Part shown: positions 24,887 to 29,582 of the stretch, one piece after another
Layout: the number at the start of each line of letters is the position of its first letter
Position numbering within the stretch: the first letter of the stretch is position 1
Assembly (NCBI GenBank): GCA_944358325.1
Contig: CALVQV010000005.1
Coordinates: 1-36,685 of the forward strand
Direction: 5' to 3'
Length of the DNA: 36,685 nt
Origin: an uncultured Bacilli bacterium
GTDB lineage: Bacteria; Bacillota_I; Bacilli_A; RF39; UBA660
Position numbers and translations under genes: made by a program
Notes under the pieces: model-generated
Database searches by the model: none
Seen by the model: the letters and a program-made list of their open reading frames with translations, nothing else
Told to the model about the DNA's origin: nothing

Positions 24887-24913
24887 AAAAGTAGTAAATA
24901 AATTACTACTTTT
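24887..24913. terminator. bidirectional terminator between the coat-like gene and spoVAE
   Basis: An 11-bp stem (24887-24897 with 24903-24913) and a 5-base loop directly after the plus-strand stop; A and U runs on the two sides let it serve both convergent genes. It includes the spoVAE stop codon. Confidence 0.85.
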
Positions 24914-25262
24914 AATTTTGTGGTTTAAATAAAAAACTAAGAAAAAATGAAAAAATAATCGCTGCAACAATTCCTGTTGAAGTTAAATCAAACATTCCCA
25001 TCATAAGTCCCATAAATCCTAAATCACAAGCTTTATCCAAAGCTCCATGAATAAGTAAATGCCCAAAACTAGTAATTGGTACTAAAGCTCCTCCACCAGC
25101 AATTTTAACAAAATAATCATATATATTAAATATATCTAAAAAAGAGCCAGTAATAACAAAAATAGTCGTTATATGTCCTGGAGTTAATTTAGTATTATCT
25201 AAAATAATTTCTCCAAGTAGACATATAAGTCCTGAAAATAAAAATGCATTTATATATATCAT
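24912..25262 (-). CDS. spoVAE: stage V sporulation protein AE (SpoVAEb type)
   Basis: Small integral membrane protein, 116 residues, of the SpoVA channel that moves dipicolinic acid into the forespore and out at germination. Features: three to four hydrophobic helices and the family-like segments GHITTIFVITGSFLDIFNIYDYFVKIAGGGALVPITSFGH and FDLTSTGIVAAIIFS (shown to the reader as positions about 29-69 and 90-105). The start overlaps spoVAD by four bases (ATGA). SpoVAC and SpoVAE are distant relatives of each other. Confidence 0.93.
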   Translation of the reverse strand: MIYINAFLFSGLICLLGEIILDNTKLTPGHITTIFVITGSFLDIFNIYDYFVKIAGGGALVPITSFGHLLIHGALDKACDLGFMGLMMGMFDLTSTGIVAAIIFSFFLSFLFKPQN

Positions 25263-26251
25263 ATTAAAGCCTCCAAACTAATGGCATGTGCAATAGAAGG
25301 TATGGATAATTTTTGATTAACGAAAGTTGGACTCATTAAAGCACCAGTAGCCACTAATAAAACTTTTTTTAATTCTCCCTTTTGCATCTTATTAAAAATA
25401 TCTCCAAAGGCAACTAATGGTAGACAAGCAGGTCCACTACCACCAGCATGAACATCCTTTGTTTTTTCATAATCAAAAATTAAAGTTCCAGCATCTTCTA
25501 AATTGTTCATTTTTATTTGATAATCTGTTTGCATCATATCTTTTAAAATTTTAACCCCATAAATCCCTAAATCACCAGTTAAAACTAAATCATAATAATC
25601 TATTTCTCTTTTTGTTTCATCTAAATGCTTTTTAATAACATAACTAGCAGCAGGTGCCATAACTGCACCCATATGATAAGTATCACTTACTCCCATATCT
25701 TTTACAACACCAACTGTAGCACTTTCTACTTTAACACCACACCTATTATATGATAAATAAGCACTACAACCACCAGTACAAGTAAAAGTACTAGTAACTC
25801 TTTTTGGTCCTCCATACTCTACAGGATAACGAAATTGTTTCTCTGCACTAGCATTATGAGAACTAACAGTCATAATAAAATTTTTAATTTGTCCAGCTTC
25901 CAACATATTAGAACCAATTATTAATCCCTCAACACTAGATGCACATGCACTATAAATTCCTAGTAAAGGTATGCCTATAGTACGCGAAGCATAATTAGTT
26001 GCGGTTAACTGATTAAGTAAATCCCCTCCAATATGTAAATCAATCTCACTTTTTACTTTTTTAACTTTATATAATAATAAATCAACACTCTCTTCTATTA
26101 ATTTACTTTCAGCTTGTTCAAAAGTCTTCTTACCAAAATAAAGATTATCATAAGTTTTATCATAAGTATGCGCTAAAGGTCCTAATTGTTCATATGGACC
26201 AGCAATAGTAGCCGTTTCATTTAAATAAACATTCTTATATTTAAAAGTCAT
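25259..26251 (-). CDS. spoVAD: stage V sporulation protein AD
   Basis: SpoVAD is the soluble, thiolase-fold, dipicolinic-acid-binding subunit of the SpoVA channel. 330 residues, close to the Bacillus length. Recognised from NVYLNETATIAGPYEQLGPL near the start, GIPLLGIYSACASSVEG and FTCTGGCSAYLSY in the middle, and HAGGSGPACLP near the C-terminus. It overlaps its neighbours by four bases on both sides. It ends in TGA, showing that TGA is a stop codon in this organism. Confidence 0.96.
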   Translation of the reverse strand: MTFKYKNVYLNETATIAGPYEQLGPLAHTYDKTYDNLYFGKKTFEQAESKLIEESVDLLLYKVKKVKSEIDLHIGGDLLNQLTATNYASRTIGIPLLGIYSACASSVEGLIIGSNMLEAGQIKNFIMTVSSHNASAEKQFRYPVEYGGPKRVTSTFTCTGGCSAYLSYNRCGVKVESATVGVVKDMGVSDTYHMGAVMAPAASYVIKKHLDETKREIDYYDLVLTGDLGIYGVKILKDMMQTDYQIKMNNLEDAGTLIFDYEKTKDVHAGGSGPACLPLVAFGDIFNKMQKGELKKVLLVATGALMSPTFVNQKLSIPSIAHAISLEALI

Positions 26252-26694
26252 ACATTGCCTCCAAAAATAAGAAAACGTACAATACCAAAAATATAAGCAC
26301 TAATGATACCATAAATAATAACAGACCCAGCAAGCTTCAACATATTAGAACCTAAACCTGTTACAAAACCTTCACGTCGATAATCTAAAGCAGCACTTTG
26401 CATAGAATGCGCAAAACCAGTAATCGGAATAATTAAACCACATCTAGCAAAATTAACCCACTTATCAAAAAAACCAAAACAAGTTAAAAGACAACCAATG
26501 AAAATTAAAGTTGTAGTCATAAAAACACCAGCATCTTGTTTAGGAATATCCAAAATATAAGCATAAAATGTTCTTAATAACTCTCCAATAACTCCTAGCA
26601 TACCACCAATTCCAAAAGCAATAAATGCATTCAGTAATCTATTTTCTTTAGGTGTATGCTTTGTAACTAAATCTTTATATTTATTTTTTTCCAT
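26248..26694 (-). CDS. spoVAC: stage V sporulation protein AC
   Basis: Mechanosensitive membrane subunit of the SpoVA dipicolinic acid channel, 148 residues with about four hydrophobic segments (for example NAFIAFGIGGMLGVIGELL and CGLIIPITGFAHSMQSAALDYRREG split over residues about 23-41 and 86-110). First gene of spoVAC-spoVAD-spoVAE, with ribosome binding site TTGGAGG and a sigma-F/G-type promoter upstream. spoVAA, spoVAB and spoVAF are not present here, as is common outside Bacillus. Confidence 0.95.
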   Translation of the reverse strand: MEKNKYKDLVTKHTPKENRLLNAFIAFGIGGMLGVIGELLRTFYAYILDIPKQDAGVFMTTTLIFIGCLLTCFGFFDKWVNFARCGLIIPITGFAHSMQSAALDYRREGFVTGLGSNMLKLAGSVIIYGIISAYIFGIVRFLIFGGNV

Positions 26695-26710: not shown

Positions 26711-26739
26711 TAGTATGTATAAAAAATAATATTGTATAC
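26711..26739 (-). promoter_or_regulatory. sigma-F/sigma-G type promoter of spoVAC-spoVAD-spoVAE
   Basis: GTATA (26735-26739) and CATACTA (26711-26717) with a 17-base spacer match the forespore consensus GHATR-N17/18-CATAMTA. The promoter lies between the sigF terminator and the spoVAC ribosome binding site, 17 bases before the ATG. In Bacillus spoVA is transcribed by sigma-G. Confidence 0.75.
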
Positions 26740-26740
26740 A

Positions 26741-26768
26741 AAAAACCAAACTAACTTTTTAGTTTGGT
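26741..26768 (-). terminator. terminator inside the end of sigF
   Basis: A 10-bp stem with two G-C pairs (26745-26754 with 26759-26768), 4-base loop and a U run at 26741-26744. The stem includes the sigF stop codon and separates sigF from the spoVA operon. Confidence 0.85.
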
Positions 26769-27401
26769 CTTTAATTTACTAAGCACTTTAGACTCATTAC
26801 GGGAAACTTGCACTTGACTAATACCAAATAAATTAGCAACTTCCGTCTGTGTTAAATCTTCCATATATCTTTTCTTAATAAGTTCCTTTTCAAAATTAGG
26901 TAAACTATTCAAAGCTGAATCTAACATAAGTTTAGTATCTAAATCTTCTTTTTCATCTTCAATAACTTCGTATAAATTAGTGTCTTTATCTTCTGTGTAA
27001 GAATTATCCATACTTATAATTGGATTATTAGAATTAATAGCTAGACTAACCACTTCATAAGGCATCTCTAAAAAATTAGATAACTCAAAAGTCGTCGGAA
27101 CATGACCTAATTTTTGTGTCAATAAAATACTTGCTTTTTCTATTTTTAAATTAAGTTTTGTAAGATCACGACTAACTTTAATAGAACGATCTTCACGAAC
27201 TAATTTTTTCATTTCTCCTAAAATATAAGTATATGCATAAGTACTAAATTTTGTATTTTTATCATCTTGAAAATTTTTAAAAGCATTCAATAAACCAATA
27301 TAACCAACTTGATATAAATCTTCCTTATTAGGATAATTATTAAACATCTTAGCAATATAATAAATCAAATTTTGATAATTTAAAAACTCTTGTTCAGTCA
27401 T
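26751..27401 (-). CDS. sigF: RNA polymerase sporulation sigma factor, SigF-like
   Basis: Sigma-70 family group 3 factor, 216 residues against about 255 in Bacillus sigma-F; the missing part is the first 35 or so residues. Region 2 (KEDLYQVGYIGLLNAFKNF, KFSTYAYTYILGEMKKLVRED), region 3 (IKVSRDLTKLNLKI, LTQKLGHVPT) and the region 4 helix-turn-helix (LTQTEVANLFGISQVQVSR, about 183-201) are visible. The VKVSR...LG.VPT block is closer to sigma-F than sigma-G, and the place between a SpoIIAA-like gene and spoVA is that of sigF. There is no spoIIAB upstream. Sigma-F starts the forespore programme. Ribosome binding site AAAGGA. Confidence 0.9.
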   Translation of the reverse strand: MTEQEFLNYQNLIYYIAKMFNNYPNKEDLYQVGYIGLLNAFKNFQDDKNTKFSTYAYTYILGEMKKLVREDRSIKVSRDLTKLNLKIEKASILLTQKLGHVPTTFELSNFLEMPYEVVSLAINSNNPIISMDNSYTEDKDTNLYEVIEDEKEDLDTKLMLDSALNSLPNFEKELIKKRYMEDLTQTEVANLFGISQVQVSRNESKVLSKLKTKLKS

Positions 27402-27414
27402 ATTATTTTCCTTT

Positions 27415-27750
27415 CTAATTAGAAAATGCTTTTATCTCACTACCTATCTCACCAATATAATTAAGTATTCTACCTTTCTTAATCATCTTTGAAACCTTAG
27501 AATTAATACCACATATTAAAGTCTTACCATGATTATTTTTAATTAATTCATATGTATATAAAAGAGCATGCACACCTTTTACATCAATATAATCTAAGTT
27601 TTCTAAATTATAAACAACATTAGTAATACCACCTTTTTTAATTTTAGCAATAACATCTCTACTCATAATATCAAAAGTATCTTTTGTAAGTTCACCATTT
27701 AATCTTACAAATAAAATTCCTTTGCGAAACTCCATATCTATACTTAACAT
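27415..27750 (-). CDS. spoIIAA: SpoIIAA-like STAS protein lacking the phosphorylation serine
   Basis: 111-residue STAS-domain protein of the anti-anti-sigma type, aligning over its whole length with Bacillus SpoIIAA (GEL...T, VVYNLENLDYID, ICGINSKV...). In the family the conserved DSSG carries the Ser that SpoIIAB phosphorylates (Ser58). Here the four residues are DVKG (56-59), with Val57 and Lys58, so no phosphorylation is possible at that site. It lies 13 bases before sigF with no spoIIAB gene between. Probably it still contacts a regulator of sigma-F or has become a direct partner; that is inference. Confidence 0.88.
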   Translation of the reverse strand: MLSIDMEFRKGILFVRLNGELTKDTFDIMSRDVIAKIKKGGITNVVYNLENLDYIDVKGVHALLYTYELIKNNHGKTLICGINSKVSKMIKKGRILNYIGEIGSEIKAFSN

Positions 27751-27798
27751 ACATCACCTCTATCCTAATTTAGCACACCAATATCTTTTTTTATACAA

Positions 27799-27808
27799 AA
27801 TCGACAAA
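27799..27808 (-). promoter_or_regulatory. possible Spo0A box upstream of spoIIAA
   Basis: TTTGTCGATT on the minus strand differs from the Spo0A box TTTGTCRAA at one core base and lies about 50 bases before the spoIIAA start. A single short match in AT-rich DNA; no clear sigma-H or sigma-A promoter accompanies it. Confidence 0.3.
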
Positions 27809-27809
27809 A

Positions 27810-29582
27810 CTAGTTATTCTTTTTAATAACTACTATAATAGATAAAATTAAACCAACAATAATAAAACCAAAACCTAAATAATATAAACTATCTAACTCT
27901 AAAACAGAACTTTTAGTTACATCAATATCACTATCACATTTTTTATTTTGTAATAAATTATTTAAACTATCTATCTCTTCTAAATAACTAGCTTGCATAT
28001 CACTTTTAGAAGCATTTAAAAGATTATTATCATTTTCTAAAAATTGATTTAAATGCTTTAAAGATTCCATTTCTAATAATAAATCCTTTATCTTCTTATT
28101 AGTAGCTTCAATCTGTTTATCTTTACTTAAACTTTCCTCTTCTTGTTTTAAAATAGTTTCATAAAATGATTTAGCGACACGTTCTAAAAGTAATAAAGAT
28201 TTTTTTAAACTATCTACTCTTTCTAAATAACTTTCAATTTCTTTTTTCAAAATATCATTATCTATAACTAATTCTTTTTGATCTTTAAAGTCTTCTTCTA
28301 AAACTAATAATTTATCTTGCATATCTTTTATTAAAATTAAAACATCATTTAATTCTTGTTTATTTAAATCAGTTAAAACAATATTATCTTTTTGCTTTTC
28401 CAAAGAAATAAGATTATCTAAAAGACTATCTAATACCTCTCTAATACTATTCTCTAAAATGTTTACTTTTACATTAGCAATAACTTTTTTTACGGGACTA
28501 TCCACAATAAATTGATATAATCCATTAACACCTAAATCAACATCACTGCTAATAGTAAAATCAATATTACTATCTATAAAACTTTCCAATCTAGTCTCTA
28601 AAGATGTAATTTCAATATCATCTTGAATAGTTAAATAATCTCTTTTATAAACTTGATAATATGTCTTAACATCATCATAATCACATAGTGGATAATTACT
28701 AGTTCCGTCTTTCATATAATCAGAACTATAAATCTTTTCTATTTTATAATGACGATATTTTTTTATAACCTCACAATATTGTTTTTCTTCTCTAATAACT
28801 CTATTAACAATAGCTTCTGGTTTTTCTGTTGTTTTAATTTCATCTGTATAATTTAAAATAACAGGACTAAAAACAATTTTATCTAAATAACTTAATTCAA
28901 TATCTTGAGTTCCTTGAAAGCCATAATCTGTTCGCCAATTATAAATATAATTTACATCACTATCATCTAATATTTTAATTGTCATAATCTCTTCTGAACC
29001 ACCACTATCATAAACACCTAAATAAATTATCAAATCGTTTAAATAATGATATGTTCCAAGATCTAACTTAAATGAACCTCCATTAGTAACACTAGACATA
29101 TTTTCTTTATAATTACCATTGTGAATATAATCACTAAAAGTAGCATTACAGCCATTACACTCTATAACCGAATATGGTATCTCATAAGCTCCATCCATAA
29201 CTTTTATTTCACTAATTCGTAAAGAGCCATTTGATCCACTTAAATTTTCAAAAGATATATAACGACTAGGTCTTAACTCTTTATAATAATAAACAACTTT
29301 CTCTTTTTTATTGTCACTATAATCTAAACTGCATTCACCTTCTAATTCAATATAATCATTATAATCAATTAAAGGATAATCTAATGACTCTTCATAACCA
29401 CCATATACTTTCTTTTCACTATACCATTTATACCTTTTTTCTTCTTTAACTAAAGTTAAATTATCCTCACTAACAAAATCGGTATTCCAATCTTTAGCTA
29501 AAGTATAATCAGAATAATAAGTTTCTGCTTTGACATTACTTGTTATTAAAAATAAACATAAAAATAATAAAATTTTCTTCAT
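27810..29582 (-). CDS. large secreted, C-terminally anchored protein with discoidin-like and coiled-coil regions
   Basis: 590 residues: signal peptide (1-19, MKKILLFLCLFLITSNVKA), extracellular part, coiled coil (about 390-555, Leu/Asp/Lys-rich), a C-terminal transmembrane helix (about 567-585) and a KKNN tail. Residues about 105-205 look like an F5/8 type C (discoidin) fold (SRYISFENLSGSNG, RISEIKVMDG, FKLDLGTYHYLNDLIIYLG). Two Tyr-rich modules with a YPLxDYxD core (near 72-80 and 300-310) flank it. No catalytic motif is seen. It may bind glycans or another envelope protein; unknown. Ribosome binding site AAGGAGTGA; a terminator precedes the gene. Confidence 0.7.
   Translation of the reverse strand: MKKILLFLCLFLITSNVKAETYYSDYTLAKDWNTDFVSEDNLTLVKEEKRYKWYSEKKVYGGYEESLDYPLIDYNDYIELEGECSLDYSDNKKEKVVYYYKELRPSRYISFENLSGSNGSLRISEIKVMDGAYEIPYSVIECNGCNATFSDYIHNGNYKENMSSVTNGGSFKLDLGTYHYLNDLIIYLGVYDSGGSEEIMTIKILDDSDVNYIYNWRTDYGFQGTQDIELSYLDKIVFSPVILNYTDEIKTTEKPEAIVNRVIREEKQYCEVIKKYRHYKIEKIYSSDYMKDGTSNYPLCDYDDVKTYYQVYKRDYLTIQDDIEITSLETRLESFIDSNIDFTISSDVDLGVNGLYQFIVDSPVKKVIANVKVNILENSIREVLDSLLDNLISLEKQKDNIVLTDLNKQELNDVLILIKDMQDKLLVLEEDFKDQKELVIDNDILKKEIESYLERVDSLKKSLLLLERVAKSFYETILKQEEESLSKDKQIEATNKKIKDLLLEMESLKHLNQFLENDNNLLNASKSDMQASYLEEIDSLNNLLQNKKCDSDIDVTKSSVLELDSLYYLGFGFIIVGLILSIIVVIKKNN

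Follow-up and report, generated by a model that had tools for sequence, protein, structure and literature searches.

How is sigma-F controlled at a sporulation locus in which a gene for a SpoIIAA-like protein leads straight into sigF? By the textbook account, forespore development starts with the compartment-specific activation of sigma-F by SpoIIAA, SpoIIAB and SpoIIE; in B. subtilis the loss of SpoIIAB is very harmful. The genes spoIIAA, spoIIAB, sigF and spoIIE are common to spore-forming bacilli and clostridia (Galperin et al. 2012, PMC3533761). The locus examined here lies in a 36,685-nucleotide stretch of DNA from an uncultured Bacilli bacterium, referred to throughout as the window. The family concerned is large and consists of uncultured bacteria of the gut and rumen, with small genomes in which most spore-making genes are kept.

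The STAS-sigF locus and the absence of SpoIIAB

The features of the locus are listed below.

24912 to 25262, minus strand: spoVAE (TIGR02839, 2.9e-38)
25259 to 26251, minus strand: spoVAD (TIGR02845, 1.2e-113)
26248 to 26694, minus strand: spoVAC (TIGR02838, 1.1e-46)
26711 to 26740, minus strand: sigma-G-type promoter ahead of spoVAC, TGTATA-N17-CATACTA, from reading the sequence; we take it to fit the sigma-G consensus
26745 to 26768, no strand assigned: terminator-like hairpin that overlaps sigF at its end; the hairpin is listed on the plus strand and its T run read on the minus strand
26751 to 27401, minus strand: sigma-F-like sporulation sigma factor, 216 aa, with a short N-terminus (TIGR02980, 1.7e-49; TIGR02885, 3.4e-48)
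27415 to 27750, minus strand: SpoIIAA-like STAS protein, 111 aa, with its phospho-site replaced (IDVKG) (TIGR02886, 2.2e-15; STAS PF01740)
27577 to 27582, minus strand: codons of Val57 (the position of B. subtilis phosphoserine 58) and Lys58 (the position of Ser59), from alignment to SpoIIAA chains
27767 to 27772, minus strand: -10-like TAAATT, at a start-to-start distance of 34 nt from the Spo0A box, a spacing shared with relatives
27791 to 27808, minus strand: composite element TTTGTCGATTTTGTATAA, the sole TTTGTCGAWNNNGTWTAA match among the searched contigs of the window's genome
27800 to 27806, minus strand: Spo0A-box-like TGTCGAT (relatives' consensus TGTCGAA, present in 71 of 84 upstream regions)
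27810 to 29582, minus strand: 590-aa exported protein with a C-terminal membrane anchor, the upstream neighbour, of a clade-specific family

The minus strand thus reads, in order, the 590-aa exported protein, STAS, sigF, spoVAC, spoVAD and spoVAE. Only 13 nt separate the STAS gene from sigF downstream of it, so spoIIAB is gone from its usual place, as the preliminary description of this DNA had stated. The same pair, with STAS directly preceding sigF, recurs in 80 loci of the window's family, which excludes chance or an assembly gap as the source of the adjacency. The hairpin and its minus-strand T run appear to close the STAS-sigF unit. In one genome (G001) metK sits between STAS and sigF (L004 2057-3223).

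Completeness of the window's genome is just 76.65%, and the absence of SpoIIAB was therefore tested on its relatives. A profile search for SpoIIAB gave no match over cut-off in any of 117 family genomes, 91 of them at least 90% complete, and no match at E 1e-14 in any of 241 genomes of the order. The search also recovers B. subtilis SpoIIAB, and found SpoIIAB in 59 of 296 class genomes, all of them in other families. SpoIIE was over cut-off in only one of the 117 family genomes (G099). The window's system has neither the GHKL kinase and anti-sigma factor nor the PP2C phosphatase of a SpoIIA/SpoIIE partner switch. That spoIIAB lies elsewhere or was overlooked, a reading in keeping with the incompleteness of the window's genome, has a vanishingly small probability in our estimation: none of 91 family genomes at least 90% complete has SpoIIAB over cut-off, nor has any of 216 order genomes at E 1e-14, in searches that do recover it in B. 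subtilis and the 59 class genomes. For the family this explanation is already refuted; the gene is gone and not displaced in the 117 family and 241 order genomes, and the earlier argument against an annotation gap holds.

Several candidate kinases were set aside. Weak family matches to the SpoIIAB model lie, among those listed, nearly all in frames of more than 250 aa; the short and intermediate frames (G028, 140 aa; G014, 174 aa; G031; G069) look like truncated or separate histidine kinases, and so do the two matches in the window's own genome. Three Clostridia of the named set that seemed to lack SpoIIAB (L213, L219 and L233) all have the canonical DSSG and a SpoIIAB-like product.

The upstream neighbour (27810-29582) comprises a signal peptide, a large exported part and a C-terminal membrane anchor, and had no sequence match in Pfam, NCBIfam, PHROG or PDB. 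Its family is found upstream of STAS-sigF in 30 of 86 family loci, in 15 of 31 named SpoIIAB-less loci and in none of 79 SpoIIAB-bearing loci. This bears on the proposal that sigma-F is held by an unrelated, unlinked anti-sigma factor of a non-GHKL type, which we consider unlikely. Sigma-F presumably must stay off outside the forespore, these reduced genomes hold many unannotated genes, and the exported membrane protein accompanies the operon at those 30 of 86 STAS loci. However, no candidate adjoins sigF in most genomes; the linked exported protein is missing at most loci, and the part of it left in the cytoplasm is a very short tail.

The SpoIIAA-like STAS protein and sigma-F

The STAS protein of the window matches solved SpoIIAA chains at 7.8e-13, and its model (pLDDT 93.7) superposes on the SpoIIAA of SpoIIAA-SpoIIAB crystals with a TM score of 0.91 (1thn_B). 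Its score of 56.6 lies below the curated equivalog cut-off of TIGR02886 (114.75). The protein thus shares with SpoIIAA the STAS fold, sequence homology and a place directly upstream in the sigF operon, and lacks both the phosphorylatable Ser58 in D-S-[ST]-G and a cognate SpoIIAB in its genome.

Among the aligned SpoIIAA chains, 1tid and 1til carry DASG where 1th8 has DSSG. We take the DASG chains to be S58A constructs, and the comparison identifies the B. subtilis phosphoserine, Ser58, as the first Ser of DSSG. In the alignment to solved SpoIIAA the equivalent position in the window is Val57 (codon 27582-27580), with Lys58 aligned to Ser59; the serine is lost from DVKG as first described, and the residue in the place of the phosphoserine is Val57, not Lys58. 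A Ser occupies the phospho-position in 7 of 80 family STAS proteins, against 28 of 28 SpoIIAA proteins encoded beside SpoIIAB, and the family has E, N, L, K, I, M and others in its stead. The proposal that the kinase and its target serine were lost together is therefore borne out relative to the SpoIIAB-bearing families. The seven relatives that keep the Ser are themselves without SpoIIAB. Almost every family genome yields one STAS match only, and thus no second canonical SpoIIAA; no spoIIAB accompanied by one was found elsewhere in these genomes.

Further residues that are invariant or nearly so in SpoIIAB-bearing SpoIIAA are lost in the family (E21, D23, F55, S58, G62, R67, G95 and I99), and E8, G12 and F15 are newly near-invariant in the family STAS proteins. 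At a given sigma-F identity, STAS identity is similar in the family and in the canonical SpoIIAA set; the family STAS keeps pace with canonical divergence and is therefore still under selection in most lineages. Its conservation there implies a leftover job, one that loss of the switch does not by itself name.

The STAS gene is nevertheless dispensable. In 14 family genomes sigF has no STAS gene before it, and 13 of these have SpoIIR; they correspond to loci L256-L265 and L268-L271, usually with spoVAC behind sigF. Two more loci (L266 and L267) hold a truncated or strongly diverged STAS remnant. The STAS-less genomes are spread over a quick sigma-F tree: parsimony gives 11 changes, of which well-supported branches force only 2. 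In that tree a branch with support of 96 sets the whole SpoIIAB-less group apart from the rest.

These losses weaken the idea, raised in the preliminary description, of direct STAS control of sigma-F. In a fuller form of it the STAS protein, as an anti-sigma factor or a phosphorylation-free chaperone, would have taken the place of SpoIIAB. The strict adjacency to sigF across about 80 genera, a divergence relative to sigma-F no faster than that of canonical SpoIIAA and the clade-specific near-invariant E8, G12 and F15 all speak for such a role. The adjacency, however, is ancestral, metK has entered between the genes in G001, and scattered genomes keep sigma-F, mostly with SpoIIR, after losing STAS. 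As STAS is dispensable, direct control by it is not a general answer for sigma-F; it is improbable as the replacement of SpoIIAB and unlikely to be the main control. The more specific form of the idea, in which SpoIIAA would have become a phosphorylation-independent regulator that acts on sigma-F directly through a newly conserved surface in the region of E8, G12 and F15, and would confine it to the forespore by a mechanism unlike any described, we consider slightly less probable again.

The sigma factor is closest to the SigB/F/G group of sporulation sigma factors and distinct from sigma-G, with the sigma-F of 1l0o as its best solved match. Its score of 164.5 bits falls below the TIGR02885 equivalog cut-off (321.45 bits), and by position and similarity the gene is best regarded as a diverged sigma-F. 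In chain C of 1l0o, residue 39 is the counterpart of residue 11 in the window protein. Because the open frame permits just 10 extra N-terminal residues (226 aa), the short N-terminus reported earlier is no start-site error. As a sign of rewiring it was rejected, since some SpoIIAB-bearing relatives also carry a short sigma-F (206-223 aa).

The sigF promoter and the retained sporulation programme

The Spo0A-box core TGTCGAA stands before STAS-sigF in 71 of 84 loci, compared with 1.0 expected in dinucleotide shuffles. The box is usually followed by GTATAA or GTTTAA and then by TAwATT; in 53 of 68 cases the distance between the starts of box and TAwATT is 34 nt. A strict composite pattern had 33 matches in 98 genomes, 31 of them at the STAS-sigF unit when positions were compared. 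Where STAS is missing, the box stands before sigF in at least 11 of the 14 cases. A similar layout of Spo0A box and -10 element lies before spoIIAA in some SpoIIAB-bearing relatives, which argues that the promoter was inherited and is not a compensating invention. Judged from its sequence, the putative Spo0A box appears to be an inherited input, kept where SpoIIAB and even STAS have gone. In G063 (L008) the composite sits between STAS and sigF and uncouples the two genes.

The box is not a mark of every early sporulation operon, as no intergenic Spo0A box was found before spoIIGA-sigE in 20 regions, several of them short. That the sigF promoter is itself a sigma-F promoter (GTATA plus an xGxxAnAHTR-like -10), with autoregulation as the consequence, is doubtful: the strict pattern gave 0 hits, the -10 is unlike that of spoIIR and SpoIIAB-bearing relatives have similar promoters, although a loose sigma-F-promoter-like pattern is enriched before STAS-sigF (20 versus 1.25). 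Upstream of the family's spoIIR genes (L284-L323), TGWATAAA lies about 24 nt before a CAnTATT-like box and is likely to be a sigma-F-type promoter.

The genes on either side of sigma-F in the programme are widely kept. Spo0A is over cut-off in 95 of the 117 family genomes, SpoIIR is present in 101 and sigma-F persists in about 98. In the three loci read, spoIIGA-sigE-sigG is intact, with sigma-G adjoining sigE and its N-terminus full. Spo0A, SpoIIR and two sigma-E/K-type factors are also encoded in the genome from which the window comes. As SpoIIR, SpoIIGA, sigma-E and sigma-G are retained, sigma-F appears to head the forespore programme.

That sporulation is decaying in the family, with the operon a relic, we hold to be quite improbable. 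It would suit the stepwise losses (SpoIIAB, SpoIIE and then STAS in some), the dozen or so members that appear to have neither sigma-F nor SpoIIR and the 0% spore probability that SpoMAG assigns to RF39 (PMC12536801). Yet about 100 genera, deeply diverged from one another, have conserved sigma-F, SpoIIR and Spo0A with intact reading frames, and RF39 sequences were transferred on egg shells to chicks together with spore formers (PMC7028958), which counts here if the family is RF39. SpoMAG, moreover, may miss these lineages, because spoIIAB is present in all of its predicted spore formers (PMC12536801).

With the SpoIIAB/SpoIIE switch gone and the SpoIIAA phosphorylation site lost, spore development must start in some other way in this family. 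The best explanation, in which we place an even measure of belief and doubt, is that the operon is a remnant of spoIIA after loss of the partner switch, with Spo0A-driven transcription of sigF now the main control. The ancestral operon would have been spoIIAA-spoIIAB-sigF, and the whole sigma-F partner switch would have been lost: SpoIIAB, both kinase and anti-sigma factor, before the family diversified, and the SpoIIE phosphatase from nearly all members. Freed of its kinase, SpoIIAA may have dropped the phosphoserine and other canonical invariant residues, keeping its fold and fixing new residues in most lineages and being discarded entirely in others. Control of sigma-F would then rest mainly on transcription from the Spo0A box and the -10-like element at a fixed distance from it, before STAS-sigF or before sigF alone. 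Beyond the observed gene losses, retained genes and promoter sequence, we infer that the cells sporulate, that Spo0A binds the box and that sigma-F is controlled chiefly through transcription. Spo0A-driven transcription on its own would not confine sigma-F to the forespore.

Known systems and earlier accounts

The window's family probably falls within the order RF39 (class Bacilli), to judge by its Bacilli-like relatives, genomes of about 1.1 Mb and a gene set like the one published for RF39; its named relatives are MAGs labelled 'Tenericutes', 'Mollicutes' and 'Bacilli'. A 2024 study of gene-family presence (PMC10868615) reports that spoIIAB and spoIIE are reduced or absent in RF39 while spoIIGA, spoIIM, spoIIP and spoIIQ are kept, and predicts spores under markedly different regulation. 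The RF39 set described there shares the lack of spoIIAB and spoIIE with the window's family; the loss of kinase and phosphatase stands as a finding and had already been published in outline for that order. A SpoIIAA devoid of its phospho-site, the repeated loss of that protein and the sigF promoter had no prior description in the mostly open-access literature searched, and the fate and losses of STAS, like the promoter, appear to be new.

That a family comprising well over a hundred genera lacks the switch yet keeps Spo0A, sigma-F, SpoIIR, sigma-E and sigma-G implies either that cell-specific sigma-F activity is achievable by other means or that the switch is unneeded. Spore predictors that lean on spoIIAB as if every spore former had it (see SpoMAG, PMC12536801) may class these gut bacteria as non-sporulating. 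The series from canonical SpoIIAA through a phospho-site-less STAS protein to no STAS offers a natural set of variants with which to work out the switch's contribution.

With the spoIIA operon of B. subtilis the window shares a SpoIIAA-fold STAS protein, sigma-F, the order next to spoVA and an upstream Spo0A-box promoter, but it is without spoIIAB, SpoIIE and the STAS phosphoserine, and its sigma-F is about 30 residues shorter. Candidatus Arthromitus likewise combines a reduced genome with a minimal sporulation set; unlike the window's family, it keeps SpoIIAA, SpoIIAB and SpoIIE (PMC3533761). The RsbV/RsbW/RsbU partner switches have the STAS and GHKL logic in common with the ancestor of the window's system, whereas the family is without a GHKL kinase of that type. 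In G099, where no STAS gene adjoins sigF, a 619-aa membrane protein (L273 3491-5347) fuses a SpoIIE-type PP2C domain to a C-terminal HATPase domain.
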